Under the pieces are notes generated by a model. That model ran no database searches, was not told where the DNA came from, and worked only from the letters and a program-made list of their open reading frames with translations. From assembly GCA_027622005.1 (NCBI GenBank), contig JAQBZH010000015.1, forward strand, positions 1 to 57,518: a stretch of 57,518 bases of DNA, given 5' to 3'. This DNA comes from Bacteroidota bacterium (GTDB lineage Bacteria; Bacteroidota; Rhodothermia; Rhodothermales; UBA10348). Position numbers and translations under genes: made by a program. The number at the start of each line of letters is the position of its first letter. Position 1 is the stretch's first letter. Below are positions 3,492 through 17,880 of the stretch, piece by piece.

Positions 3492-4048
3492 AAGATATTA
3501 TTCACGGGAAGGCCTATGTGGTCGGGGACTCGATTGACACGGATCAGATTATCCCGGCCGTTCACCTTGTTTATAGTATGAAAATCCCGGAAGAGCGGCA
3601 GTTTTATGGTCGTTATGCCTTATGTGGGCTGCCAGAAACGAGTCAGGGACTTCCGGCCGGAAACATCCCTTTTACCGCGCCCGACCGGTTCAAGAGCGAC
3701 TTTACTTTTGTAATCGCTGGGACGAACTTTGGATGTGGGTCTTCGAGAGAACACGCCCCGTTCGCATTGCAAGAAGCAGGAGCTGAGGTGGTTATCGCCG
3801 AATCGTTTGCACGCATTTTTTATCGCAATGCGGTGGACGGCGGCTTTGTCATTCCTTTTGAGTCCCGGGCGCGGCTAATTGAACAAATTCGTACCGGAGA
3901 TGTCCTCACTCTCGACACGCGAACAGGCGTGTTGCTGAATGTGACTACCGATACCGAATATTTGCTTGACCCGCTTGGGGATATCGCTGAAATCTTGAAG
4001 TGCGGAAACGTGTTTGAATATGCCAGACGAGCCGGGATGATGGCCTAA
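3488..4048 (+). CDS. leuD: 3-isopropylmalate dehydratase small subunit
   Basis: Swivel-domain partner of LeuC. The frame stays open upstream to 3293, but that part lies inside leuC and reads as unrelated sequence. The TTG at 3488 is the better start: it overlaps the leuC stop as TTGA, and AGAGAGG at 3474-3480 sits 7 bases upstream as a ribosome-binding site. This gives 186 residues, a normal length for LeuD. The product opens [13 protein letters not shown], continues with SIDTDQIIP, the substrate-binding start typical of the short LeuD group, and has [12 protein letters not shown] in the middle. Translation is probably coupled to leuC. No clear terminator follows. Confidence 0.92.
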
Positions 4049-4082
4049 ATCATTTTAGATTCGTATGAAGTTTGAAAAATGG

Positions 4083-4112
4083 TTGATAAAATCGGTGGTT
4101 TTGACGTATTAT
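4083..4112 (+). promoter_or_regulatory. Predicted sigma-70-like promoter of the arginine operon
   Basis: TTGATA at 4083-4088 (5 of 6 to TTGACA), an 18-base spacer, and TATTAT at 4107-4112 (5 of 6 to TATAAT). Transcription would begin near 4119, only about two bases before the ATG of the arginine leader peptide at 4121, so the leader transcript would be nearly leaderless. Read by eye only. Confidence 0.55.
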
Positions 4113-4120
4113 TCGATCTT

Positions 4121-4216
4121 ATGATTATTACCGCCCAAAGTACTACCAGTTTTCGTCGACGAATCCGACAGATATCCTCCGGGGTATGCGGATTCGTTGC
4201 AAGTGCGGTAGCCTGA
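4121..4216 (+). CDS. Arginine leader peptide of an attenuator (31 aa)
   Basis: A 31-codon open frame, ATG 4121 to TGA 4214-4216, in the 260-base gap between leuD and argG. Residues 11-16 are FRRRIR: four arginines within five codons (CGT 4154, CGA 4157, CGA 4160, CGA 4166) and none elsewhere. An intrinsic terminator begins 28 bases after the stop, and the genes that follow make arginine. This is the layout of a ribosome-stalling leader peptide, as known for trp, his and leu operons of other bacteria. A shortage of charged tRNA-Arg would stall the ribosome on codons 12-16. The peptide itself probably has no further function. I do not recall this leader being described. Confidence 0.75.
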   Translation: MIITAQSTTSFRRRIRQISSGVCGFVASAVA

Positions 4217-4258
4217 TGTAGCCCTTTTACGTCAACCGATTCAAGCGCCGATCCGTAT
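4160..4258 (+). promoter_or_regulatory. Attenuator RNA: Arg-codon stem and competing antiterminator
   Basis: Two mutually exclusive pairings can be read. Arm A, cgaatccg at 4160-4167, lies on the Arg codons and pairs perfectly with arm B, cggattcg at 4189-4196. Arm B extended to 4186-4196 can instead pair with 4249-4258 (cgatccgtat) by 10 base pairs, with one G-U and one bulged base (4194). That second pairing takes the loop and the two top bases of the 5' arm of the terminator at 4244-4270. A ribosome stalled on the Arg codons would cover arm A and free arm B to form the antiterminator. Pairings were found by eye, without energy calculation. Confidence 0.6.
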
Positions 4259-4280
4259 GGAACCGGCGCTTTTTTTATTT
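4244..4280 (+). terminator. Intrinsic terminator before argG (attenuator)
   Basis: AGCGCCG at 4244-4250 and CGGCGCT at 4264-4270 form a perfect 7-bp GC-rich stem with a 13-base loop, followed directly by a T run (4270-4276, then A and more T). It ends 29 bases before the argG ATG, downstream of the arginine leader peptide. Confidence 0.85.
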
Positions 4281-4308: not shown

Positions 4309-5514
4309 ATGTCTATTGTAGTTGCCTTTAGCGGCGGTCTCGACACGTCTTTTTGTGTTCCCTATCTGAGGGAAGAGCACAACGTTCCAGTCTATACCGT
4401 TACTGTAAACACGGGCGGAATCAGCGCAGAAGAATGCAAGCAAATAGAGCTTCGGGCCATTGAATTGGGATCTGCAGGCCACTATTTGGTGGATGCCCGG
4501 AACGAACTTTTTGACCGCTCCTTACAGTATTTAATTAAAGGCAACGTGCTTCGCGGTGATGTCTATCCTCTTTGTGTCGGCCCGGATCGGGTCGTGCAGG
4601 CTAAGGCGTTAGTCGAAACGGCGCGCAAACTAGGGTCCCGGGTCGTGGCCCATGGATCAACTGGGGCCGGAAACGACCAGATTCGATTCGATGTCGCTCT
4701 ATCGGTACTTGGAGATGATCTGACCATTTTGACCCCGATTCGGGACTTGGGCCTTACAAGGGAATACACGACCAACTGGTTGAAGGAGAGAGGGTACGCC
4801 GTATCCGCATCGACAACGACCTATTCCATCAATACGGGACTTTGGGGCACAACCGTCGGGGGTAAAGAGACTTTATCAACCGAAAAACCGCTTCCTGACA
4901 GTGCGTGGCCGACTCCATCACCCAAAGATTCTCCTGATGAAGAACAGGTCGTAGTAATCGGATTTGAAAAAGGAATTCCTTCGAGTCTTAACGGCTCCAA
5001 AATGTCCCCGGTAGACCTGATTGAAGCGCTCAATGGCCTCGGAGAAGCCCATGGGATTGGACGTGCCATCCACGTTGGCGACACCATATTGGGCATCAAA
5101 GGGCGAGTCGGGTTTCAAGCAGCAGCTGCAGCCATTCTGATTCCCGCCCACCGCGAACTCGAAAAGACGGTTTTGTCGCGTTGGCAACAATATCACAAAG
5201 CGCAGCTGGGTAATTTTTACGGGATGATGATGCACGAGGCGCAATATTTTGATCCGTGTCTTCGTGACATCGAAGCCTTTCTCGACTCCTCGCAGGAAAC
5301 GGTATCAGGAACGGTTTCCGTAGGTCTTTACAAAGGAAATGTGAGTATTCAGGGGACTTCGAGTCCTTATTCACTCTTCGATACCGGAGTCGCCACATAT
5401 GGCGAAAGTAATCAATTGTGGGATGGGCGAGACGCTAGAGGGTTCGCGCGCATTCTTGGCCTTCAGTCACTTTTAACCCATCGAGTTCGCTCCGCAACAG
5501 CCCCAAAGCCATGA
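4309..5514 (+). CDS. argG: Argininosuccinate synthase
   Basis: Joins citrulline and aspartate with ATP in the cytoplasm; seventh step of arginine synthesis. The 401-residue length is normal. AFSGGLDTSF near residue 6 is the ATP-pyrophosphatase loop; HGSTGAGNDQIRFD near residue 118 is the conserved citrulline/aspartate-binding block; YSINTGLWG is further family signature. The ATG at 4309 lies just after the leader terminator, so expression should depend on readthrough at the attenuator. Its stop overlaps the next gene as ATGA. First structural gene of the operon, as in many Bacteroidota except that a GNAT acyltransferase gene often precedes it there. Confidence 0.95.
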   Translation: MSIVVAFSGGLDTSFCVPYLREEHNVPVYTVTVNTGGISAEECKQIELRAIELGSAGHYLVDARNELFDRSLQYLIKGNVLRGDVYPLCVGPDRVVQAKALVETARKLGSRVVAHGSTGAGNDQIRFDVALSVLGDDLTILTPIRDLGLTREYTTNWLKERGYAVSASTTTYSINTGLWGTTVGGKETLSTEKPLPDSAWPTPSPKDSPDEEQVVVIGFEKGIPSSLNGSKMSPVDLIEALNGLGEAHGIGRAIHVGDTILGIKGRVGFQAAAAAILIPAHRELEKTVLSRWQQYHKAQLGNFYGMMMHEAQYFDPCLRDIEAFLDSSQETVSGTVSVGLYKGNVSIQGTSSPYSLFDTGVATYGESNQLWDGRDARGFARILGLQSLLTHRVRSATAPKP

Positions 5515-6581
5515 CGAAAATGAATACCATGCCGGTAACTTATGTTTGTTCGACCGCCGCAAAAACGGGATTGGACAAGGATATTACTGTATCAGACTAT
5601 GTGGTTGCACAAGAAGGCTACTGTATCGTGGTTGAAGCCCTCGAGTCAAAAGCCATTTATAATCAGATCGAATGCTCAGACGGCGAATTCCGGACGATTG
5701 CCAAAGGAGATATTTTTGTTGGCGTCCTGGGCGAAAGAAAAGCGCTAAAAGGATATAGTGGGCAAGTCCCACGCATTGCGTTTCCCGGCGATACGCTCAA
5801 CGTACTCAATTTGGGCGGGATTATCGGGAATTGCACGTCCGACCACCCCGCGCTTGGCCCTGCGCTCAGAGTCAAAGTGATCGGCGCTGCCATGGTTCAA
5901 TCCGAAGGAATGTGGGTTCATGCCCGTTTGCAGGATCATGCATTACCCGAAGTGGAGAATTTGACCAAGTCTGTTCCGCTCATTTTTGTGAGCGGTACTG
6001 CAATGGACACCGGCAAAACCTGGGCTTGCTGCGAATTGGTTCAGCGTTTAACCAATAAGGGATATCGGGTAGCCGCTGCCAAGGCAACGGGCGCATCGCT
6101 CATGCGGGATGTCCGGTTGATAGAACGCCACGGCGCCGTCGCGATCGCAACATTTACAGACACCGGAATCGTGTGTACGGCGTCTAAAACCATGGCTAAA
6201 AACGTTAAAGGCATCATCCATCACTTGTGTACGACGTCGGATCCCGATGTGATTGTGATTGAGCTGGGAGACGGTATTATCGGATACTATGGGGTTGATG
6301 AACTGTTGCAGGACAAGGAGTTGCAGTCTTTTTGTGTGGCGCATATCGTTACCGGAGTAGATCTCGCCGGAATCTGGGCTGCCCAGACGTTGTTCAAAGA
6401 TCGATATCATGCGAATATTGCATTGGTCACCGGACCCGTTACCGACAATGGCGTCGGACGGCAATACATCCGACAGGTTATGGGTATTCCGGCCATCAAT
6501 GCCCGCGAAGATCCGCAGGAAATGGGAGACCTTATCGCGACCTATTTGCCACCTCCTGCCGTCCGTGAGGTAGTGGCATGA
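5511..6581 (+). CDS. Unidentified P-loop protein inside the arginine operon
   Basis: A 356-residue protein I cannot assign to a named family. It overlaps argG by ATGA at its start and argC by ATGA at its end, so it is translated as part of the arginine operon. Residues 1-150 look beta-rich with no known motif. From about residue 158 there is a P-loop, SGTAMDTGKTWAC (GxxxDTGKT), then KATGASLMRDVRLIERHGA and VIVIELGDGIIGYYG. This resembles the BioD/CobQ/DUF1611 class of P-loop enzymes, which phosphorylate or ligate small molecules. No signal peptide or membrane segment is seen, so it is probably cytoplasmic. Its place in the operon suggests a step or control function in arginine synthesis, but nothing in the sequence proves it. 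Confidence 0.6.
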   Translation: MTKMNTMPVTYVCSTAAKTGLDKDITVSDYVVAQEGYCIVVEALESKAIYNQIECSDGEFRTIAKGDIFVGVLGERKALKGYSGQVPRIAFPGDTLNVLNLGGIIGNCTSDHPALGPALRVKVIGAAMVQSEGMWVHARLQDHALPEVENLTKSVPLIFVSGTAMDTGKTWACCELVQRLTNKGYRVAAAKATGASLMRDVRLIERHGAVAIATFTDTGIVCTASKTMAKNVKGIIHHLCTTSDPDVIVIELGDGIIGYYGVDELLQDKELQSFCVAHIVTGVDLAGIWAAQTLFKDRYHANIALVTGPVTDNGVGRQYIRQVMGIPAINAREDPQEMGDLIATYLPPPAVREVVA

Positions 6582-7567
6582 TCAAGGTCGGGATTCTTCA
6601 TGGGGCTGGTTATGTCGGCAGAAAGCTGATAGAACAGGTATTGGCTCATCCGGCCATGCGTTTGGATGCCGTTACGAGTCGGTCGCATGAAAATCAACCT
6701 ATCTGGACCGCTCATTCTCATTTGAGAGGGAGGACGGACTTGTTGTTTACAGCAAATATTTCCTCCTCCTCGCTCGATCTCGTATTTGTGGCGGCTGGTC
6801 ATGGACAAGGGGCCAAAGCGGTGTGTGAACTGCTGGATAAAGGGTTTGAAGGCTTGATCGTCGACATGAGCGCCGATTTCCGTATCAAAGACGCAGCGAC
6901 GTATCAACAACGCTATGGAGCTCCTCACCCACGGCCTGAGTTGCTCAAAACTGCCTGGTACGGTATGCCTGAGATTACAGGCCCCCCACCCGCAGGCACT
7001 CGGTTAATCGCGAACCCCGGATGTTTTGCTTCTGCGCTATCCTTAGCTCTTTATCCGCTTTCTAAAGCAGGGATTACGAACAAGGTGGCGGTCACGGCGC
7101 TGACCGGAGCAAGTGGGTCTGGAGCGATTGCCAAAGACACGACGCACTTTCCCAGCCGAAATGGCAACGTAAAAGCTTACAAAGTTTTTGAACACCAGCA
7201 CGAAGCCGAAATCGATCAAATGGCCCCGGGAGTCGATTATTCCTTTGTACCCATTTCGGGTCCATGGACCGATGGGATATGGGGCGTGGCGCAGCTAGAT
7301 TTGGGTGCCGGATCGACCCTCCAAATAGCTAATCTGTTTCAATCGGCTTATGGGGATTGTCCTCTCGTTCGCCTTTGGCCTGACCAGCTACCTGAACTCC
7401 ACTATAGTGTCGGATCGCCCTTTACCGATATAGGTTGGATCCAAAAAGAGGGCCAAGTAGCGATCGGGTTTGCAATCGACAATTTATTAAAAGGGGCTGC
7501 GTCGCAGGCCATTCAAAATGTCAATTTGGCGCTCGGAATGGATCAAACCACCGGATTGCTACCTTAA
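6578..7567 (+). CDS. argC: N-acetyl(acyl)-gamma-glutamyl-phosphate reductase
   Basis: NADPH-dependent reduction of acylglutamyl phosphate to the semialdehyde. The 329 residues begin with a Rossmann nucleotide loop, GILHGAGYVGRKL. The catalytic cysteine is in NPGCFASA (about residue 149), and the general-base histidine is in EHQHEAEI (about 207-209). The block TGASGSG plus DTTHFPSRNGNV resembles the ArgC group of Bacteroidota and the LysY group more than E. coli ArgC. Start ATG 6578 overlaps the previous stop by 4 bases. Whether the acyl group is acetyl or succinyl cannot be read from this protein. Confidence 0.92.
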   Translation: MIKVGILHGAGYVGRKLIEQVLAHPAMRLDAVTSRSHENQPIWTAHSHLRGRTDLLFTANISSSSLDLVFVAAGHGQGAKAVCELLDKGFEGLIVDMSADFRIKDAATYQQRYGAPHPRPELLKTAWYGMPEITGPPPAGTRLIANPGCFASALSLALYPLSKAGITNKVAVTALTGASGSGAIAKDTTHFPSRNGNVKAYKVFEHQHEAEIDQMAPGVDYSFVPISGPWTDGIWGVAQLDLGAGSTLQIANLFQSAYGDCPLVRLWPDQLPELHYSVGSPFTDIGWIQKEGQVAIGFAIDNLLKGAASQAIQNVNLALGMDQTTGLLP

Positions 7568-7651
7568 CAAACACGGGTGCATAACCGCACTCTAACCGCA
7601 CGGACTTCAGAAAGACCTCAGTTTTAATTAAATCCGAAATTAACCACTGTC

Positions 7652-8833
7652 ATGACTTCAGCAGAATGGATGGAATTGGAAGATGCTACGCAGCTCAACA
7701 CCTATCGAAAATGGCCCATTTCTCTCGAATCGGGTAAAGGCGCTTGGGTTGTAGACACGGACGGCAATCGATACTTGGACCTTTATGGTGGCCATTGTGT
7801 CGTGTTTATGGGGCACAATCATCCGGTGGTAGTACAGGCGGTAAAGGATCAATCCGATAAGCTCTTGTTTTATTCGAACGCGGTTTATTCTCCCGTTCGC
7901 GCCCGGGCCTCTGCTGCCTTGGCCGCTCTGTCTCCAAAGGGAATGGGGAATATTTTTTTCATTAATTCGGGAGCCGAGGCCAACGAAACGGCCATGAAAA
8001 TCGCGCGGAAAGCGACAGGCCGTTCAGGCATCGTGGCTATGGAAGGGGATTTTCACGGAAGGTCGCTCGGAGCCTTGTCGGTCACCTGGCAAGCCGCCTA
8101 TCGGAAGGCACATGAGTCTTCCTTCGGGCCCGTCACTTTCGTGCCTTTTGGGGACACGGAACGGGCGTGTCAAGTGATCAAAGAAACCCTACCTGCGGCC
8201 GTCATTATTGAACCTATTCAATCGACGGCGGGCATGCGGACCGCACCAGCGTCGTTTTTTCAGGCGGTGGCTAAGGCCTGCAAGGAAGCCGGTTCAATGC
8301 TCATCATGGATGAGGTCCAATCGGGGATTGGCCGCACGGGCGCATTTACTTACAGTGAAGTGGTTGGGATAGAGCCCGATATGATCACGCTTGCCAAAAG
8401 TCTGGGCGGCGGTGTTCCTGTAGGCGCCGTTTTGATTCGGGACGAAGTGGCAGCAACCGTCAATTATGGTGATCAGGGGACGACTTTCGGTGGGGCGCCG
8501 CTCGCAATGGCTGCCGTTGAAGCCGCCCTCAAGGTATTGGTTGATGAAAATCTAACCGAACGCTCGGTCCAAATTTATGACCTTTTTGAAAAGGGATGTA
8601 CGGATCGTGGACTCCGCATTCAAGGGGCGGGCTGTTTGATCGGGATCGACTTTGGACAACCCATCGCTTCCTTCATAACGAGTTTTCGGGAAAAAGGCAT
8701 CCTGGTTGGCGGTTCGACGGACCCCAATATTATGCGTTTAATGCCTCCAGGTGTCGTAACGGACCAGGAAATCGATTCGTTTTTTGCCATACTGGATGAA
8801 ATAATGGCTTCCAAGCTGGAGGAAGTAGCCTAA
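7652..8833 (+). CDS. argD: N-acetyl(acyl)ornithine aminotransferase
   Basis: PLP-dependent class III aminotransferase that turns acylglutamate semialdehyde into acylornithine, with glutamate as donor. The 393-residue length is typical. GAEANETAMKIARK near residue 108 is the cofactor phosphate region, IMDEVQSGIGRTG near 218 holds the PLP-ring aspartate, and ITLAKSLGGGVPVGA near 245 holds the Schiff-base lysine (about K249). It follows argC after 84 bases, the widest gap in the operon; I see no hairpin or promoter there. The stop TAA shares a base with the argF' start (TAATG), so the two are probably coupled. Confidence 0.92.
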   Translation: MTSAEWMELEDATQLNTYRKWPISLESGKGAWVVDTDGNRYLDLYGGHCVVFMGHNHPVVVQAVKDQSDKLLFYSNAVYSPVRARASAALAALSPKGMGNIFFINSGAEANETAMKIARKATGRSGIVAMEGDFHGRSLGALSVTWQAAYRKAHESSFGPVTFVPFGDTERACQVIKETLPAAVIIEPIQSTAGMRTAPASFFQAVAKACKEAGSMLIMDEVQSGIGRTGAFTYSEVVGIEPDMITLAKSLGGGVPVGAVLIRDEVAATVNYGDQGTTFGGAPLAMAAVEAALKVLVDENLTERSVQIYDLFEKGCTDRGLRIQGAGCLIGIDFGQPIASFITSFREKGILVGGSTDPNIMRLMPPGVVTDQEIDSFFAILDEIMASKLEEVA

Positions 8834-9912
8834 TGCATTTACTCGATTGGCACGACGTAGCAGAATCCGACTGGACGAGCCTTATCGAACAGTCCTTGCT
8901 TAACGGTGCCGATCGTAGGCGATTGGAAAATACCCATCTGGGGAAAAGCGTTGGCCTGGTTTTTTTCAACGATTCACTTAGAACCCGCGTTTCTATGGAG
9001 CTAGCTGCGGCTTCGCTGGGCGCGACTTCGGTGACGGTTACGCCGGGAAGTGGCACTTGGGGATTCGCATGGGAAAAAGGCGTTCCGATGCTGGGGGCCG
9101 AAGCAGAACACATTCAGGAAGCAGTGGGGGTTTTGTCCAGGTATGTTGACCTTTTGGGCGTCCGGCTTTTTGCCTCAGGCACCGACTTGGTTAAAGATAT
9201 GCAGGACAATATGTTGAAGCAGTTTGCGGCGGCGTCGGCCGTGCCTGTTTTAAACCTTGAATCTGCTTCGCGGCACCCTTGTCAGGCACTGGCCGACGCC
9301 GCGGTTCTCACCCGTCATTTTTCCGGCCAACCGAAAGGTAAAAAGTTTGTCCTTTCGTGGGCATATCACCCGAAGCCATTGCCCATGGCCGTCCCTCACT
9401 CAACTTTGCTAATGGCAGCCCGATTGGGAATGAACGTCACGGTGGCGCGCCCCGACGGATTTGAACTGGATCCTGAAGTCATGAAACAAGCACGTCAATC
9501 CGCAGCCGCGAGTGGCGGATCGGTTGAGGAAATGAATCGGCAGGATTCCGCAATGGAAGGAGCGCACATCGTTTACGCCAAAGCTTGGGGAGGAAAAGCA
9601 AGGTATGAGGATCCAGCTATCGAAGTTCGAGATCGTCAGGCGCATTCCGATTGGCGCGTTACGCGGCACCTGATGGCGCTTACGAATGGAGGCGGCCAAG
9701 GCAAGTTTATGCACTGCCTCCCGGTACGCCGCGGAGTGGTAGTTGACGACGACGTTTTGGACGGGGCTCATACGCTCCACTTAGAACAAGCCGAATACCG
9801 ATTACACGCCCAAAAAGCGATCCTAAGTTGGCTGTGGGAGCGAAACAAGAAGTCCTCTGATTCCGGAGGGACGGTTTCCGCGAGCTCAAACCCCGCCGCT
9901 AACCACCCATGA
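8833..9912 (+). CDS. argF': N-acylornithine transcarbamylase (ArgF')
   Basis: Transfers carbamoyl phosphate to an N-acylated ornithine. It is not ordinary ornithine transcarbamylase: the SMG ornithine loop is missing and YHPKPLPMAVPHS stands in its place, as in the acetyl- and succinylornithine enzymes. Other blocks are SLRTRVS (carbamoyl phosphate), SRHPCQALAD and HCLPVRR. From memory of the Xanthomonas (acetyl) and B. fragilis (succinyl) enzymes, specificity depends on Glu92 versus Pro90; here the aligned residue is Ala, in GAEAEHIQEA. The carboxylated Lys302 of the acetyl enzyme aligns with Val. At 359 residues it is longer than either; about 20 polar residues at the C-terminus are extra. 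Substrate therefore undecided. Confidence 0.88.
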   Translation: MHLLDWHDVAESDWTSLIEQSLLNGADRRRLENTHLGKSVGLVFFNDSLRTRVSMELAAASLGATSVTVTPGSGTWGFAWEKGVPMLGAEAEHIQEAVGVLSRYVDLLGVRLFASGTDLVKDMQDNMLKQFAAASAVPVLNLESASRHPCQALADAAVLTRHFSGQPKGKKFVLSWAYHPKPLPMAVPHSTLLMAARLGMNVTVARPDGFELDPEVMKQARQSAAASGGSVEEMNRQDSAMEGAHIVYAKAWGGKARYEDPAIEVRDRQAHSDWRVTRHLMALTNGGGQGKFMHCLPVRRGVVVDDDVLDGAHTLHLEQAEYRLHAQKAILSWLWERNKKSSDSGGTVSASSNPAANHP

Positions 9913-10688
9913 AGCGAACCGTCGTCAAAATAGGTGGGGCCCTTTTGGCTGAGCCATTGGATGCACTTTTCGAAGGGTTGGCTGAACTTCAGCAGCAATC
10001 CGAAGTCATATTAGTGCACGGAGGCGGCCCTCAAACGACCGCGATGGCGAACAGGCTCGGACATTCCCCAACCATTGTGGAGGGCAGAAGGGTCACGACG
10101 GATCTAGATCTCGATATCGTTAAATGGATGATTCGTGGCCAGTTAAACGTGGAATTAGTTGCCCGTGCCTCCCTGTCGGGCATTCGCGCCCTTGGTATGA
10201 GCGGGGCGGACGCGGGACTCATTCAGGTGTCGAGGCGTCCAATTTGGTCGATTGAAGGCAAATCCGTAGACTTTGGGCACGTCGGGGATTTTCAACGGGC
10301 TGATCCGACCGCGTTACTAGCCTTATTGCAATCAGGAATTATGCCCATCGTGTGTCCGCCGGGAATGGATCAAAACGGACACTTGTATAACATCAACGCC
10401 GACACGGTGGCCCTCGAAGTGGCCAGTGCCGTTCAGGCTGACGAGCTCATCTTAGTCACCGAAACGGGTGCCGTTTTGGATGATGAAAAACGTCCGATTC
10501 GAAGAATGTACTCAGCGGACGCACAGAAGGGCGTTTCAGCTGGATGGATATCCGGTGGCATGAAGGTTAAAACCGATATCGGATTTTCCGCGCTGAAGCG
10601 GGGCATTGCCAACGTCTGGATTTTAGGGCCGGAATCTCTTGCTTCCAAAGCCCGTGGTACGCAGCTATTGGAGGCCTCACATGCTTGA
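9909..10688 (+). CDS. argB: N-acetyl(acyl)glutamate kinase
   Basis: Phosphorylates the gamma-carboxyl of acylglutamate, amino-acid kinase fold. In 259 residues: KIGGALL at 7-13, VHGGGPQTT at 37-45 (nucleotide-binding glycine loops), GHVGDF near 121, NINADTVALEVA near 161 and SGGMKVKTD near 217. No N-terminal arginine-sensing helix is present, as expected for the roughly 260-residue feedback-insensitive type. The ATG at 9909 overlaps the argF' stop as ATGA. LysZ-type kinase is the closest alternative, but the neighbours are all arginine genes. Confidence 0.9.
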   Translation: MKRTVVKIGGALLAEPLDALFEGLAELQQQSEVILVHGGGPQTTAMANRLGHSPTIVEGRRVTTDLDLDIVKWMIRGQLNVELVARASLSGIRALGMSGADAGLIQVSRRPIWSIEGKSVDFGHVGDFQRADPTALLALLQSGIMPIVCPPGMDQNGHLYNINADTVALEVASAVQADELILVTETGAVLDDEKRPIRRMYSADAQKGVSAGWISGGMKVKTDIGFSALKRGIANVWILGPESLASKARGTQLLEASHA

Positions 10689-11754
10689 TCAAGACGTTTG
10701 CGTGCTACACCGACGGTTGGTTGCCATTCCCTCCTTGAGTCATCAGGAATCGGACGCTGCAAGTCTGATGGAGGCCCATTTAAAGGAAGCAGGCCTTACC
10801 GTTAGCCGGGCCAACAACAATGTCGTAGCCGAATGGGGAGAAGGAGAGCCGGTTTTACTACTCAATTCGCATCTGGACGTGGTCCCGGCATCGTCAGACC
10901 ATCCGTTTCCACCTTTCGTCCCTACCATTTCCGATGGAAAAGTGTTCGGAAGGGGAACGGTGGACGCTAAAGCCAGCGTAGCGAGTATGGCCACGGCCGT
11001 TTGTCGATTGGCAGCGGCCGGATATCGTCCGAAAGGTAAAATCGTGGTCGCGTTTACGGCGTGCGAAGAAACGGGAGGCGAAAATAACGGTCTGGAGCAA
11101 ATCATCAATCAACTGCCTAAGCCATCGGCGGCGCTCATCGGCGAGCCGACCCACATGCAGCCCTGTGTAGCTCAGAAAGGGCTTTTGATCCTTCGCCTCG
11201 ACGCTCACGGCAAATCGGCGCATGCGGCGAGGGCGGAAGAAGGACTCAATGCGATTTCGATCATGGTTCGCGATTTAGGTCGCCTCGAAAACTTTTCGCT
11301 GGACCGGATCCACCCCTATCTCGGTAAAACAACGATTAGTGTGACCGTGGTGAACGGAGGATCGGCCCGAAATATGATCCCAGATTCCTGTACGGCCTTT
11401 TTGGACATTCGCTCGACGCCCGTTTACGACCACGACGAAATCGCTGCGCTCATCCAAAAGGAATTGGAATCGACGGTCCACATTCATTCAAAACGGTTTG
11501 TTTCGGTTGATACTTTGCCAACCGAGTCTATTGTCCACGCGTGTCTGCAGGGTTCGACAGGTTCTTCTACCTTTGGCTCACCCACCATGTCCGACTGGAT
11601 CCATGTAAAAGGTGTTCCGACCGTAAAAATTGGCCCTGGCGATAGTCGGTTGTCCCACACGGCTAACGAACATATTGATATTCGCGAGCTGATTGATAGC
11701 TGCGCCACTTACGAACGTATTATCCAAGCTTATTTCGAGTTGAATCATGGCTGA
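10681..11754 (+). CDS. argE: ArgE-type N-acylcitrulline/acylornithine deacylase
   Basis: M20 metallopeptidase-family amidohydrolase. With an acylornithine transcarbamylase in the operon, its substrate should be acylcitrulline rather than acylornithine. The ATG at 10681 gives 357 residues and overlaps argB by 8 bases; a frame extension to 10639 adds only residues read out of argB. Zinc ligands are visible: NSHLDVVPA (His near 64), GRGTVDAKAS (Asp near 95), CEETGG (the catalytic Glu and its neighbour near 129) and LSHTANEHID (His near 326). A dimerisation domain lies between about 170 and 270. Cytoplasmic, no signal peptide. Confidence 0.88.
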   Translation: MLDQDVCVLHRRLVAIPSLSHQESDAASLMEAHLKEAGLTVSRANNNVVAEWGEGEPVLLLNSHLDVVPASSDHPFPPFVPTISDGKVFGRGTVDAKASVASMATAVCRLAAAGYRPKGKIVVAFTACEETGGENNGLEQIINQLPKPSAALIGEPTHMQPCVAQKGLLILRLDAHGKSAHAARAEEGLNAISIMVRDLGRLENFSLDRIHPYLGKTTISVTVVNGGSARNMIPDSCTAFLDIRSTPVYDHDEIAALIQKELESTVHIHSKRFVSVDTLPTESIVHACLQGSTGSSTFGSPTMSDWIHVKGVPTVKIGPGDSRLSHTANEHIDIRELIDSCATYERIIQAYFELNHG

Positions 11755-13045
11755 TCTTCCAATCTGGTTTAAAGGAACAGAGACCGCATCGTGGGTCACG
11801 CGATTTACCGTCGGCGATGACCCCATGTGGGACATGATGTTATTACCTTTTGACGCCGCAGCATCGCTAGCGCATGCCGCCGGACTCGTAACGGCGGGAA
11901 TTCTCACCGAAGACGAACTAACATCTCTTGATGGAGCGTTTTCCGAATTAGCGGATGCCTTCGAAAATGGCGAGATCCAGATTTCGCTTAAGGACGAAGA
12001 TTGTCACACGGTCATTGAGCGCTTTTTGACCGAAAAAGTGGGCGATATCGGCAAAAAAATCCACACCGGTCGCTCCCGAAACGATCAGGTTCTGGCAGCG
12101 ATACGTCTTTGGCTTCGATTTAATTTGGATGATGTCGCGGGTGAAGTTGAGTCGCTCGCCTTGCAGTTGGCTGATATGGCCGATTCCCATCAAGATCAGT
12201 TTTTACCCGGTTATACCCACCTTCAGCGCGCCATGCCTAGCACGGTAGCCATGTGGGCCGCTGGCTATTCAGAGAGCCTGGTAGAAGATTTAGATCTGGT
12301 ATTGAATGCCCGACGCCGCATTAACGCATCGCCCCTCGGAAGTGGAGCCGGATACGGCATTCCTTACGTGAAACTACCTCGGCAGGAAGTTGCTGAAAGC
12401 CTCGGTTTTGACCGAATTCAGGAAAATGTGACAGCCGTGCAATTGAGCCGTGGGAAATACGAGTTAGAAGTGGTCCATGCGTTATTGCAATGCGCCGCGA
12501 CCATCAACCGACTAGCCTCGGACGTGGTCCTTTACGCGTCGGCTGAGTTTGGATTCGTGCGGCTAGACGATGCACTAACCACCGGAAGTAGCATCATGCC
12601 TCAAAAAAAGAACCCGGACATTGCCGAACTGGCTCGGGCAACGATGCATCGATTGTCGGGTGAATTCCAGGTACTCCTCGGAATACCGGCAAATCTTCCG
12701 TCTGGATACCACCGCGATTTACAGTTGACCAAAGGGGCGGTAATGAAAGCAGTTTTAATCCAAAAGGATCTGTTGGAGGCCACGAAGGGCCTTCTGGCCG
12801 GACTCTCCTTCAAAGCTGAAACACTGGACGCGGCAAAAGACCCCGATTTATTTGCGACGGCAGCTGCCCTATCCGATGTCGTAAAGGGCAAGCCTTTTCG
12901 CGAGGCGTACCGCGACGCAGCAAAGTCGCCTCAAAAGTGGGCAGAACAAGCATTTACAAAGCTTTCGGAAGCCTACTCCACGGTTGGAACGCCGGGGAAT
13001 GTTTCCACGAAAAATATTCGGGATCGACTCAGGAGCATGCGCTGA
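11747..13045 (+). CDS. argH: Argininosuccinate lyase
   Basis: Splits argininosuccinate into arginine and fumarate, the last step of the pathway. The 432-residue product has the fumarase/aspartase superfamily signature SSIMPQKKNPD near residue 280 with the catalytic serine loop, plus HTGRSRNDQV near residue 102 and TLLQRA-like YTHLQRAMPS near 160. It overlaps argE by 8 bases at its start and is the last gene of the operon; the next gene is on the other strand. No convincing terminator is seen in the 75-base gap. Confidence 0.95.
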   Translation: MADLPIWFKGTETASWVTRFTVGDDPMWDMMLLPFDAAASLAHAAGLVTAGILTEDELTSLDGAFSELADAFENGEIQISLKDEDCHTVIERFLTEKVGDIGKKIHTGRSRNDQVLAAIRLWLRFNLDDVAGEVESLALQLADMADSHQDQFLPGYTHLQRAMPSTVAMWAAGYSESLVEDLDLVLNARRRINASPLGSGAGYGIPYVKLPRQEVAESLGFDRIQENVTAVQLSRGKYELEVVHALLQCAATINRLASDVVLYASAEFGFVRLDDALTTGSSIMPQKKNPDIAELARATMHRLSGEFQVLLGIPANLPSGYHRDLQLTKGAVMKAVLIQKDLLEATKGLLAGLSFKAETLDAAKDPDLFATAAALSDVVKGKPFREAYRDAAKSPQKWAEQAFTKLSEAYSTVGTPGNVSTKNIRDRLRSMR

Positions 13046-13120: not shown

Positions 13121-15511
13121 TTAAACCCGAAACAGATAGCTCAATTTCAGAAAGAAGCCGTCGTTGGTGCGTTGTAGGTCGCGGAAGCGGTAGGTATTGG
13201 GTTCTCTAGACGAGTTCCCATAACCGACAAACAATACCGTCCCGGGATCAGGCCGGAAAGAAACCAACCAATCTACTCTGAAGGTATTTCGACGGAAGGC
13301 CGTCGATTTCGAATAAACCCCCGTGGAAGGATTAAGAATTAAAATGGGCTCTTCCGTTCTGGAATCGTCTCGAAGCGCATCGACAAAATTTGAATCGTAT
13401 TGCCCTACCAATCGAATGAACAAAGAAGGGGTTACTTGATATTCGGCCTTGAGGCGTGGGACCCGGTGGATACTCACCGTTGAATGATCGCTCGCCCGAT
13501 CGTATTGCTGGTGATTGTAGGAGAAGTTGATTCTGATCTGCTCCGTGGGGGTATAGTTTAGTCCAAGCGTAATAAATAGAATATTGGAAGAGGACCACTC
13601 CGAAAAGTTGTCGTCACGACCACCTACTAGTTGCAGATTCCCACTAAAATTGCTTAGTTGAGGCGTAGTGAGATTCGTCCAAAAACCCAAGTTGGTCAAT
13701 CGATCCTCGCCGATATATGCCGTCGTATCAACCACTACTCCATTCTCTTTCCTCTCGAGATAAAAATTGGTGTACAGGTACTCAGGGTATTTAAACGATT
13801 CGAGGAAAACGGAAGTAGTACCCGACCAGCCTCCTTTAAAGCTATAGGCAGAGTTAAGGTGGAATTTTTGATCGTTTGGTGTTTTCCCGTCGGTAAATCG
13901 GTCATAGTCCCATGTCCCGTCGAGAGAAAAACCGAGCTGCAGCGATTCAACCACGGCGCCTTCATCTCCGGTCCATCGTTGATAGGGTTGAAAATGTACG
14001 TTGACGATACCCGTCCGAGTAATAAATCCCGATTCCGCGTTAAAATCGTTATGAAATCCAAACGCAGATAAGTTTCCGCCGTATTTGCGACCCGAAGCGA
14101 TAGCGGAGAATTTCCACATGGGCGCCGATACCATCTCGCCCCTGTTTGCGGCCGTGCCAGGGTCTCCGGTAAAACTCATTCCCGCTTGATAAGTCATCGA
14201 ATAAATACTTGCAAAGGTCATACGCCCGTCGACGGCCGCCACTCGATTCCAATGGCCACCATGACTTTTATCCGTTAGCACGAGACCAATGGTGTTTTGA
14301 CCCGATAAATCTCTCCGGAAGCGAACCGCATTCATATATCCGGCGTCCAGATCGGAGAGATAAAGCTCCCTGTTATCTACAGCGGAAAGTGCTGCGATAT
14401 TCGTACTTCCAATTTTGCCTGTTAGCTTGACCGCGCTCAAAGGATTCGAAACCCTACGCGAGTAAATCAAATTGGTAGGGGACTGAAATAGTTCGATACC
14501 GTCCAGAAAGAAGGGCCTTTTTTCCGGCACAAAAACGGCTTGTCTCGGATCGAATGATATCTGTGCGACATCGGCTTCGACTTGAGAAAAATCGGGATTC
14601 ACGGTTCCGTTTAGTGTCAAATTGCTTGTAATGCCCCAGCGGACGTTGAGGCCCAGGGGATCTCGAGCTTCGGCGTCAAATTTGGCTTCATTCCCCGCCG
14701 GCCGATTCATGGTTCCGGTCACTTCAGGATTGATGTCCAATACTAACCCACGTTGCAGATTAGTGAGGGCAGGAATCACTCCATTTTGTGACATAAAAGA
14801 GGCATTGTTTTGCCTAGTTGACGTCCATGTGCTAGTATAACCGGAATGCTGAATTTGGCGGATAATATTAAACCCCCAATCTTGCGTTTCGACGTTTTGA
14901 TAGCGGACACTTTTAAATGGAACTACAACCTCCACTTCGAAGCCGTATTCAGTCAACCGTCCTTTGGACTGGTATAAAAAATCAGGGCTTAAATCGATTG
15001 TGTAAGGCGCATTGCTTCCGCGGCCACCGCCGTCGGAATCTTTTAGCGTTCCATCAGCCTGTTGACCAAATGGATTGACGCCGATCGTAAAAGCTTGACG
15101 GCGGTCATTGTACGTATCGAGAATAATTTGAACGTTGTCATCGCCGCCCAATCTATCTCGATCAGCAAGCGTTGCCCGAACCTCGCCGTGCATTTCGTAA
15201 GCCTTAATGCCGAAATGAATGGCTGTGGGAGAGTACCAAACCAAGACTACCGTGGAGTCTTGCGAAAGTCTTCCATCAACGGGCAAATAGTCACTAAATC
15301 CGGAAAAACGCGTCGCCCGGGCCCAAACTTCCTCGTCCAAAACCCCGTCTACCGTTACTTCAACCCCTTCAATTCGAGGAACTTCGACTTCAAGAGATGG
15401 TCTCGGTCGAGTGGGGTCGTCGGAGGCCCACACGGCTTGTACTGAGACAACCAAAAACGCCCCGAGCATTGCTATTCGGGAAAGAGAAAAAGTCGAAATT
15501 GCACGCGTCAT
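13121..15511 (-). CDS. DUF5916 outer-membrane protein, copy 1
   Basis: A 796-residue secreted protein of the DUF5916 type: signal peptide (residues 1-29, ending VWA), a CBM9-like beta-sandwich over about 40-240 (starts EGVEVTVDGVLDEEVW), then a long C-terminal region expected to be a beta-barrel that ends in an aromatic-rich strand closing with YLFRV. The block NPDFSQVEADVAQI, followed by PEKRPFFLDG, is the family's best marker. Function of the family is not established; a carbohydrate-binding head on an outer-membrane barrel suggests sugar or polymer handling. It is the downstream member of a tandem pair, 17 bases after the second copy. Confidence 0.8.
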   Translation of the reverse strand: MTRAISTFSLSRIAMLGAFLVVSVQAVWASDDPTRPRPSLEVEVPRIEGVEVTVDGVLDEEVWARATRFSGFSDYLPVDGRLSQDSTVVLVWYSPTAIHFGIKAYEMHGEVRATLADRDRLGGDDNVQIILDTYNDRRQAFTIGVNPFGQQADGTLKDSDGGGRGSNAPYTIDLSPDFLYQSKGRLTEYGFEVEVVVPFKSVRYQNVETQDWGFNIIRQIQHSGYTSTWTSTRQNNASFMSQNGVIPALTNLQRGLVLDINPEVTGTMNRPAGNEAKFDAEARDPLGLNVRWGITSNLTLNGTVNPDFSQVEADVAQISFDPRQAVFVPEKRPFFLDGIELFQSPTNLIYSRRVSNPLSAVKLTGKIGSTNIAALSAVDNRELYLSDLDAGYMNAVRFRRDLSGQNTIGLVLTDKSHGGHWNRVAAVDGRMTFASIYSMTYQAGMSFTGDPGTAANRGEMVSAPMWKFSAIASGRKYGGNLSAFGFHNDFNAESGFITRTGIVNVHFQPYQRWTGDEGAVVESLQLGFSLDGTWDYDRFTDGKTPNDQKFHLNSAYSFKGGWSGTTSVFLESFKYPEYLYTNFYLERKENGVVVDTTAYIGEDRLTNLGFWTNLTTPQLSNFSGNLQLVGGRDDNFSEWSSSNILFITLGLNYTPTEQIRINFSYNHQQYDRASDHSTVSIHRVPRLKAEYQVTPSLFIRLVGQYDSNFVDALRDDSRTEEPILILNPSTGVYSKSTAFRRNTFRVDWLVSFRPDPGTVLFVGYGNSSREPNTYRFRDLQRTNDGFFLKLSYLFRV

Positions 15512-15528
15512 ATTGGTGAAAATTTCAG

Positions 15529-17880
15529 TTAAACACGAAGAAGGTACTGAAGCTTGAAGAAAAACTGTCTATTGGTTTGTTGCAGCAGCATGGGCTGACC
15601 ATCGCGGGCAGCTGGGAAGTCTTCAAATCGATGACTTGAACCAAGATGCACCACGGTAAACGGACTGACACGATACGTGACTAGCGGATCGATTTCGAGA
15701 CGTTCTGTAAAATCGTTGTATTGCACGATAACGCGAGATAACAGCTTGCGAGAAAATTGATAGTTGACTCGCGAGCGAAGAATATATCCCGAGTAGAATT
15801 TCTCTTTCGTTTGTTTGTCCGTGAGCTGAGCGTAGTTGATGCCGGAGCCTATAGTCATCCGATCCGTTGCGCGTACCGTCACATCAGCGCCTCCGCTAAA
15901 CATGTATCCCACTTCTGGAGCCGCCGGGTTTCGATAAATCGCATTTCCGAATTCAGCTCTCATTCCGACCTGCATTCGCTGGCTGAAATTGCTGTTTGCT
16001 CGAATATTGGCTCGATTGACCTGAGTAAACTGCTTTCCGGCGTAAAGCTCATTTGACGCAAAAAACATCGCGTTCACCGAGGTTTGGCGTCCCAACTGGG
16101 TAAAAAACCCAGTGAAAATAGATTCGTCTTTACGGACGTTGTCGAAATTCCAAAAGCGATTGACGCCGGCAAATACCGTCATCCGGCTCATCCACGCACT
16201 ATTTGGGACATAAAAAGTATACCTGTTCTGAATATTTACACGACGGGCATCGTTATTGGGTATAAAGCCGTTATCCGCGCGGAAAGTCGGACTCAGCTGA
16301 ACATAATTTATATCAGCTCCATAGTTACGCCCAGTGCGCTCGAACTTGGTGTCCAAGGCGTGTCCAGAGAAACTTTCACCATCCAACGCTCCTGTATAAT
16401 TTCCACGGTCAAAAGAACGCCCGTTCAAGCCACTTTCGGCTGACAACTTAGCGTTGTTCATTTCCGTCGTTTGACTATAGAGAAACTGCCAACTAGCTGA
16501 ATACTTCGTCTTAAACCGAATAGAACCATCGATTCCAAACAATGAACCTGAACCTCCATCGTCCAAGCGACGGTCGGTAACCATCGCAGCAATAAAGGAG
16601 TTGTTTTCAAAGCTCTTCCTTGCCCGAAGGATATTGGAAACGGACTTTCCACCGGAAACCAAGCGGCTACTCTCCTCGAGAGGAACCATGATCGGCGAGG
16701 TATTGTCCCTGGCGCCTATATAGCCGAAGGACCAGGACCCCGCCCGACCCGTCAATTTTGCGGCCGCCAGCGGGTCGTTAATGGACCGGGTGTAAACAGC
16801 ATTGATCCGCGAAGAAAAGATATCAGCTCCTTCCTGAAAAAATGCTCTACGTTCGGGAAAAGAAAGCGCAAAAGCTGAATTGACGTCAATTTGAGCCACA
16901 TCGGATTCGATTTGACTAAAATCCGGATTAAGAGTCACATCAGCGGTCAGGTTAGAAGATATTCCGTATTTCACATTTAAAGAGGGTTCGGCCGTCATTC
17001 GTCGGTTGTCAAAGCCATTTACTGGATTTCCGAAATCTCTGTTACCCGTTTGGCTTCCGGTAAGTGCAGGTAAAATCTCAATATTTCGACCCGTTTTAAT
17101 TCCGGACATTCCCGCCAACGTTCCAAACTGGCAAGCCATGCATGGATCGGCTCGGTCGATAGCGGCCCAGGTATATTGCGATCTATCGCCGCGGGGCCTC
17201 GTAATCCAAAAGGTCGCTTTCCATTCCTGTATATCCGCTTTCGGAAATCGTAGGCTTCGAAATGGGATAGCCATTTCAATCTGATATCCAGTCTCGGTGA
17301 TTATTCCTGCTGAATCGTAGATCAGGTCAAAGCCCATGTCTTCCTGTTGACCGATGGCTGATCTTGTATCCCCTTGAATTCCATAAGGGTTGGAAGAAAT
17401 GAAGTAAGTGACCTGTCCATCACCTTGCGTATCCAAGAGAATCCCGGCATAATCATCCTGCCAAATCTGATCGCGGTCATTCAAATGGGCTCTGATGGTC
17501 AGCGGATCGTCCTGAATCACATACGCGACGTACAAATTTTCAGAATCATAAGCCATGTAGGCTTTGATACCAATGGGCGGCTTGCCGTTTTCATTGGGTT
17601 GAAACTCAGTAAAATTAGTTGCCACGGCCGCCGTTGCCCAAGCTGCTTCATCCAACGTCCCATCTATCGAAATCTTACCTGAAATCTCAGGGATGTCGAG
17701 TCGTGGCGCCGTGTTGGGTCTAAATGGTATTGGGGCCTGGACATTTGAAGCGCTCATTTCTGAGGGCTGGGCAAACGCCGTTGCGGTAACGGACAGGCTT
17801 AAAAACGTCAAAAAACTTACGACCCGTAGTGGGCCAACAAGGCGCAACTTAAATCGCGTCTTGGTGAAAACGTGTGTCAT
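15529..17880 (-). CDS. DUF5916 outer-membrane protein, copy 2
   Basis: A 783-residue paralogue of the neighbouring gene at 13121-15511. Signal peptide residues 1-38 (ends TAFAQ); CBM9-like domain from about residue 58 (ISGKISIDGTLDEAAW); family blocks NPDFSQIESDVAQI and FPERRAFFQEGADIF; C-terminal strand ending FKLQYLLRV, suited to outer-membrane insertion. Only 17 bases separate the two genes, so they are probably co-transcribed, with this one first. Outside the marker blocks the two proteins differ strongly, so the duplication is old. Substrate unknown. Confidence 0.8.
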   Translation of the reverse strand: MTHVFTKTRFKLRLVGPLRVVSFLTFLSLSVTATAFAQPSEMSASNVQAPIPFRPNTAPRLDIPEISGKISIDGTLDEAAWATAAVATNFTEFQPNENGKPPIGIKAYMAYDSENLYVAYVIQDDPLTIRAHLNDRDQIWQDDYAGILLDTQGDGQVTYFISSNPYGIQGDTRSAIGQQEDMGFDLIYDSAGIITETGYQIEMAIPFRSLRFPKADIQEWKATFWITRPRGDRSQYTWAAIDRADPCMACQFGTLAGMSGIKTGRNIEILPALTGSQTGNRDFGNPVNGFDNRRMTAEPSLNVKYGISSNLTADVTLNPDFSQIESDVAQIDVNSAFALSFPERRAFFQEGADIFSSRINAVYTRSINDPLAAAKLTGRAGSWSFGYIGARDNTSPIMVPLEESSRLVSGGKSVSNILRARKSFENNSFIAAMVTDRRLDDGGSGSLFGIDGSIRFKTKYSASWQFLYSQTTEMNNAKLSAESGLNGRSFDRGNYTGALDGESFSGHALDTKFERTGRNYGADINYVQLSPTFRADNGFIPNNDARRVNIQNRYTFYVPNSAWMSRMTVFAGVNRFWNFDNVRKDESIFTGFFTQLGRQTSVNAMFFASNELYAGKQFTQVNRANIRANSNFSQRMQVGMRAEFGNAIYRNPAAPEVGYMFSGGADVTVRATDRMTIGSGINYAQLTDKQTKEKFYSGYILRSRVNYQFSRKLLSRVIVQYNDFTERLEIDPLVTYRVSPFTVVHLGSSHRFEDFPAARDGQPMLLQQTNRQFFFKLQYLLRV

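Follow-up and report, generated by a model that had tools for sequence, protein, structure and literature searches.

What controls the arginine biosynthetic operon of a Bacteroidota bacterium that carries no argR gene? Arginine synthesis is the textbook example of a repressor-controlled pathway (ArgR). No ArgR (PF01316) was found in the genome studied here (0/1, 97.5% complete) or in the genomes of its family (0/27), in a search whose control was positive in 9/14 genomes, and ArgR control of the operon was rejected since the genome has no argR gene. In the window, i.e. the whole stretch of 57,518 nucleotides that was analysed, eight genes form an operon running from argG to argH:

4309..5514, plus strand: argG, argininosuccinate synthase, first gene of the operon (TIGR00032, 312 bits against a cut-off of 268)
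5511..6581, plus strand: ORF of unknown function within the arg operon, matching no Pfam family
6578..13045, plus strand: argC, argD, N-acetylornithine carbamoyltransferase, argB, an ArgE/DapE-type deacylase and argH

The ORF at 5511-6581 codes for a 356-aa protein that lies between argG and argC, overlaps both and shows weak P-loop-like matches only (bioD, MobB); a counterpart is also present 3' of argG in minus-strand relatives. On the 3' side of argH, the minus strand (13121-17880) encodes two adjacent large secreted-type proteins of 796 and 783 aa, the first with a DUF5916 match.

The gap between leuD (end 4048) and argG (start 4309) harbors a short ORF with an arginine cluster and a set of RNA segments that can pair with one another:

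4121..4216, plus strand: leader peptide ORF of 31 codons (MIITAQSTTSFRRRIRQISSGVCGFVASAVA); relatives have homologous ORFs with an Arg cluster upstream of argG
4154..4168, plus strand: putative control codons Arg-Arg-Arg-Ile-Arg (CGT CGA CGA ATC CGA), assigned from the sequence, the CGA enrichment and the tRNA genes
4160..4167, plus strand: arm A (CGAATCCG), within the Arg codons and paired with arm B in the minimum free energy fold
4186..4196, plus strand: arm B (ATGCGGATTCG), whose partner is either arm A (via 4189-4196) or arm C
4244..4258, plus strand: arm C, the 5' stem and loop of the terminator, of which 4249-4258 is complementary to arm B (antiterminator)
4264..4270, plus strand: arm D, the 3' stem of the terminator, partner of 4244-4250
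4270..4276, plus strand: T run of the intrinsic terminator, seven T in the sequence

An earlier note on this DNA had described a 31-codon leader with four Arg codons within positions 12-16 and none elsewhere, and the sequence bears this out, the Arg residues being at codons 12, 13, 14 and 16 only (4154-4162 and 4166-4168). Its account of the pairings holds equally well: arm A is the exact reverse complement of 4189-4196 (CGGATTCG), arm B can instead form ten pairs with 4249-4258 (CGATCCGTAT), one of them G-U and with one bulged T, and the stem of the claimed intrinsic terminator consists of seven perfect pairs (4244-4250 with 4264-4270) running into the T run. A strict terminator scan did not report this hairpin, because the loop limit of the scan is 8 and the loop in the window is 13. 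The folded leader RNA of the window is more stable than its shuffles (z -3.4). For the window taken by itself, neither the Arg cluster (p=0.11) nor the A:B pairing (p 0.15) nor the B:C pairing (p 0.09) is significant relative to dinucleotide shuffles, and the significance of these parts therefore comes from their conservation in relatives. With such a p value for the cluster and leuD ending at 4048, one could imagine a chance ORF, a hairpin that merely terminates the upstream leu operon, and an argG gene served by an ordinary promoter.

We drew the regions upstream of argG from 27 family, 114 order and 245 class genomes and from a phylum sample of 247, and counted an Arg-cluster ORF when it exceeded dinucleotide shuffles at p<=0.05. 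Such ORFs precede argG in 51/88 regions of the order and in 15/28 regions of the class outside the order, and in the phylum outside the class in 2/40 regions, which is the chance rate. Within the family, an argG start is available for 21 genes, and 19 of them have the leader; the exceptions (L097, L098) both belong to genus g5. A leader ORF followed by a terminator, both found automatically, is present in 59 of the 88 order regions; this is a minimum, and L131 and L142 were excluded for a poor automatic terminator pick (in L091, the leader start was taken as the GTG at -192). Downstream of nearly every leader of the order lie a GC hairpin and a T run, well ahead of the argG start, and several families of the class outside the order retain leader and terminator (e.g. 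IRRLRRRR, NRRRRFRRR). The leader is also kept with argG where other genes, for example a PadR-type gene, stand upstream. The peptides have almost nothing in common but the Arg run (FRRRIR in the window, DRRRRRARRYPRRR and VRPIRPVRRPRRPR in others), their length varies from 18 to 44 aa, the sequence outside the Arg cluster is not conserved, and the stop codon is consistently located just beyond arm B. A short ORF with clustered Arg codons before argG is thus conserved in relatives, and the attenuator claim of the earlier note, for which a lack of conservation of Arg codons or stems would have been fatal, survived this comparison.

A predicted promoter lies immediately upstream of the leader:

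4083..4112, plus strand: predicted sigma-70-type promoter TTGATA-18-TATTAT (10/12 consensus matches, same layout in relatives)

The -10 element of the window ends 8 nt 5' of the leader ATG. Just 5' of the leader, a promoter with at least 8/12 consensus matches occurs in 46 of the 59 leaders versus 4% of shuffles, and in 37 of these 46 the distance from the end of the -10 element to the start codon is 6-11 nt; about 10% of shuffled promoter matches fall 6-13 nt from the start codon. Judged solely from promoter position, transcription should begin at the leader start codon or no more than a few nt away, and the leader mRNA is probably near-leaderless. An in-frame ATG further upstream, at 4079, would give a 45-aa version with no further Arg and lies 5' of the predicted promoter.

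The alternative pairings were evaluated in the relatives. Pairing of the stretch following the Arg codons with the 5' arm of the terminator (B:C) beats shuffles at p<=0.05 in 29/61 genomes (mean z -1.6), and pairing of the leader with the same B site (A:B) does so in 20/61 (mean z -1.3), each genome being judged without reference to the others; the evidence for A:B is weaker than that for B:C. When each B is paired with its own C, the summed energy is -849 kcal/mol versus a permutation mean of -697 (sd 17), a value equalled in 0 of 20,000 permutations; this permutation test, like the shuffle test, ignores phylogeny, and it may be partly inflated by shared base composition, though the shuffle test controls for composition. 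In the terminator hairpin, changes on both sides preserve pairing at three positions within the family. The pairings are therefore conserved or covarying, as seen in the genome-specific fit of B to C and in the paired changes of the terminator. Of the comparison of upstream gaps proposed in the earlier note, the conserved Arg frame stands, as does covariation at the terminator stem, and for the A:B stem RNAalifold recovers only three of the pairs.

These data also bear on two of the alternatives. The chance reading is extremely unlikely: the element accompanies argG in relatives with different upstream genes, the predicted promoter between leuD and the leader places the terminator inside the arg transcript, and both the distribution of leaders in order, class and phylum and the permutation result speak against it. 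There is likewise a vanishingly small probability that the ORF makes a small basic protein with a function of its own, the RNA pairings being incidental; the basic residues are indeed strongly conserved, but nothing is conserved beyond the Arg run, and neither the position of the stop codon relative to arm B nor the genome-by-genome match of B with the terminator arm is accounted for.

The leader RNA was folded in three states, with a ribosome in the Arg cluster, with none and with one at the stop codon, the ribosome footprint being an assumption. In this folding model, the probability that arm C of the window is sequestered before arm D exists is 0.72 with a stalled ribosome, 0.20 with no ribosome and 0.19 with a ribosome at the stop. 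At equilibrium, blocking arm A by the stalled ribosome lowered the modeled probability of the window terminator from 0.96 to 0.01, in the direction that the earlier note had anticipated. Over the 59 genomes, modeled early sequestration of C averages 0.77 (stalled), 0.63 (no ribosome) and 0.38 (at stop), and is higher with the stalled ribosome than with none in 56/59. The mean equilibrium probability of the terminator in relatives is 0.82 stalled and 0.94 with no ribosome; since equilibrium favors the terminator even when the ribosome is stalled, antitermination in many relatives would have to be kinetic, taking place before D is transcribed.

Outside this common arrangement, several variants are present in the class. 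In f16, the family with most class genomes, another gene precedes argG. Of the 11 genomes in which the region further upstream was examined, 6 have a short ORF on the far side of this intervening gene, about 0.7-1.1 kb upstream of argG, whose peptide ends in RRR (RRRRQRMG in one genome) immediately before the stop, with a small hairpin next and no clear U-run in those inspected; this may represent a different output of the same arginine sensor. Balneolaceae-like regions (L198-L201, L205, L206) have short ORFs with the pattern MQ....RI....RR.RRR-stop on the 5' side of the gene that precedes argG; here too a hairpin comes next and lacks a clear U-run, and this may be a version of the sensor that works without a terminator. 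In f15 (L124-L126, L130, L136, L137), a conserved short ORF (MHAS.T.SRRFVAFPSRLRRG..) has fewer, split Arg codons and keeps a terminator downstream in those examined, and appears to be a weakened or altered version. The f3 regions L122, L139 and L140 have no Arg leader, and in L122 and L140 a terminator-like hairpin stands 5' of argG, perhaps left over from a leader since lost.

It is conceivable, given the Balneolaceae variant without an obvious U-tailed terminator and the precedents of the Arg-codon ORFs of speF (orf34, PMC6386406) and rbfL (PMC13009471), that stalling on the Arg codons affects translation of argG or mRNA stability rather than transcription termination. We regard this as unlikely, as the leaders of the order nearly all have their GC hairpin and T run well before argG and the alternative pairing targets the 5' arm of the terminator.

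The choice of codons indicates what may be sensed. CGA makes up 209 of 462 leader Arg codons (45%) versus 98 of 777 (13%) in the argG genes of the relatives, and CGA, CGC and CGT together account for 90% of leader Arg codons versus 65% in argG; part of the CGA bias may result from base pairing in arm A. Among the tRNA genes of the genome itself (30 of 41 predicted genes read as loci), tRNA-Arg anticodons ACG, CCG, TCT and CCT were found and none with anticodon TCG, which would leave the ACG (inosine) tRNA as the sole reader of CGA. CGA is the slowest codon of this tRNA. We infer from codon usage and tRNA gene content that the leader reads the charging of a single tRNA, tRNA-Arg(ACG). The bias is in line with the proposal that attenuators favor codons read by the tRNA that is first to lose its charge (PMC1183508).

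A different kind of sensor would be an arrest peptide, stalling the ribosome at high arginine as the fungal arginine attenuator peptide does. Arrest peptides that sense free amino acids exist (TnaC, AAP), and Arg-rich nascent chains are conserved here. Yet outside the Arg cluster neither sequence nor length is conserved, the synonymous bias towards CGA points to decoding, and a ribosome stalled by high arginine would keep C out of the terminator and thereby switch the operon on, which is the wrong sign for biosynthesis. This very unlikely alternative was rejected because the peptide is not conserved and the regulatory sign is wrong.

Given the ORF, the Arg cluster, the arms, the terminator, the promoter position, the conservation, the genome-specific B:C pairing, the CGA bias and the absence of ArgR, we consider it highly probable that the element controls the argG-argH operon as a transcription attenuator of the trp type, ribosome-mediated and sensing charged tRNA-Arg. 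We infer that the leader is translated, that transcription starts near its ATG, that ribosomes stall at low arginine, and that termination and readthrough take place in vivo. Transcription would begin at or just before the leader ATG, and the nascent near-leaderless RNA would load a ribosome. With ample arginine, this ribosome would clear the Arg codons and continue across arm B as far as the stop codon; A:B would re-form or B be occluded, C would pair with D, and RNA polymerase would terminate before argG. If charging of tRNA-Arg(ACG) is poor, the ribosome would stall in the Arg cluster and cover arm A; B, left free, would pair with C while D is still to be made, and transcription would run on into the operon.

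The wider distribution of ArgR gives a setting for this switch. PF01316 matches are present in 2 of 245 class genomes, compared with 93 of 247 in the phylum sample, many of them with argR within about 1 kb upstream of argG. A convincing ArgR is present in just one class genome, G049, of the same order, where a full-length argR (L171 1480-1932) directly precedes a divergent argG (47% identity). An Arg leader is absent there; this looks like the acquisition of an argR-argG pair. In G045, 127-codon frames with an ArgR-like DNA-binding match of the same score occur at five places of contig C1 from 1038804 on, and probably belong to a repeated mobile element. Family f3 and genus g5 have neither ArgR nor leader, so the absence of ArgR does not by itself require the leader. 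A PadR-type regulator gene stands directly 5' of argG in many relatives (L082, L083, L086, L095, L097, L098). In L097 and L098 of genus g5, this gene directly adjoins argG and there is no Arg leader, and the PadR-type protein may therefore be the regulator there. For the class without ArgR as a whole, we lean slightly towards the view that a near-leaderless arginine attenuator, reading tRNA-Arg(ACG) through CGA codons, is the main switch of the operon and has replaced ArgR in evolution; it would be the first attenuator of this kind reported for arginine biosynthesis. An ArgR-free class would then offer a natural case of replacement between repressor and attenuator, to be set beside the argR-argG neighbors of the phylum and the pair in G049.

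For carA, the other operon related to arginine, an Arg leader was rejected, no consistent Arg-cluster ORF being present there. The region upstream of carA (L262 1230-1467, contig C89, in the genome itself; L256-L275) has a conserved GC hairpin and a long T run at about -55 to -80 in nearly all family members, with a conserved stretch ahead (..GCCTTCGGCAAGACC..), and in these family members neither an Arg leader nor an Rfam match was found; it is a candidate second attenuator, perhaps for pyrimidines.

Regarding known systems, membership in a known riboswitch, T-box or amino-acid leader family was rejected, there being no Rfam match above the gathering score. ArgR-controlled genes and arginine T-boxes also tie arginine genes to arginine supply; ArgR is a DNA-binding repressor, absent here, and T-boxes have no Rfam match here. 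The fungal arginine attenuator peptide needs a conserved peptide beyond its Arg residues, which is not conserved here. In Salmonella, pausing at the consecutive Arg codons of speF orf34 at low arginine refolds the mRNA and raises expression, but it controls ornithine decarboxylase, not an arginine biosynthetic operon, and acts through Rho-dependent termination, RNase G and RBS access with no intrinsic-terminator switch (PMC6386406). In Staphylococcus aureus, rare Arg codons of the rbfL leader peptide also sense arginine limitation, whereas stalling there occludes the RBS of a biofilm regulator, a translational effect of opposite sign (PMC13009471). The trpL attenuator RNA of Sinorhizobium meliloti begins at the leader ATG, giving a leaderless leader peptide, but responds to tryptophan and belongs to an alphaproteobacterium (PMC7298713).

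A comparison of Actinobacteria reported no RNA element before arginine operons (PMC1262725), a carA leader peptide of Pseudomonas aeruginosa is mentioned in PMC4997734, and in 2010 amino-acid leader peptides were known only in Proteobacteria and Actinobacteria before the Firmicutes case of that study (PMC2965389). Clues to leader peptides at amino-acid operons of a Flavobacterium are given in PMC9723704, in a passage that does not name arginine. We found no earlier report of a leader-peptide attenuator at an arginine operon in a literature search thin on subscription papers; the mechanism is known, and the amino acid, the lineage and the class-wide use appear unreported in the literature covered, which included few such papers. 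The trp, his, leu, thr, ilv and phe attenuators share a short ORF enriched in codons for the amino acid that the operon makes, the alternative A:B, B:C and C:D pairings, and an intrinsic terminator before the first gene. The locus described here has an Arg-rich leader ORF, mutually exclusive B:C and A:B pairings with arm A overlapping the control codons, and an intrinsic terminator (4244-4276) between the leader ORF and argG. It differs from the trp-type attenuators in its amino acid, arginine, in its predicted near-leaderless ORF, and in its lineage, a class of Bacteroidota where theirs are Proteobacteria or Actinobacteria, so that an arginine leader-peptide attenuator in an ArgR-free class would add both an amino acid and a lineage to the classic mechanism.
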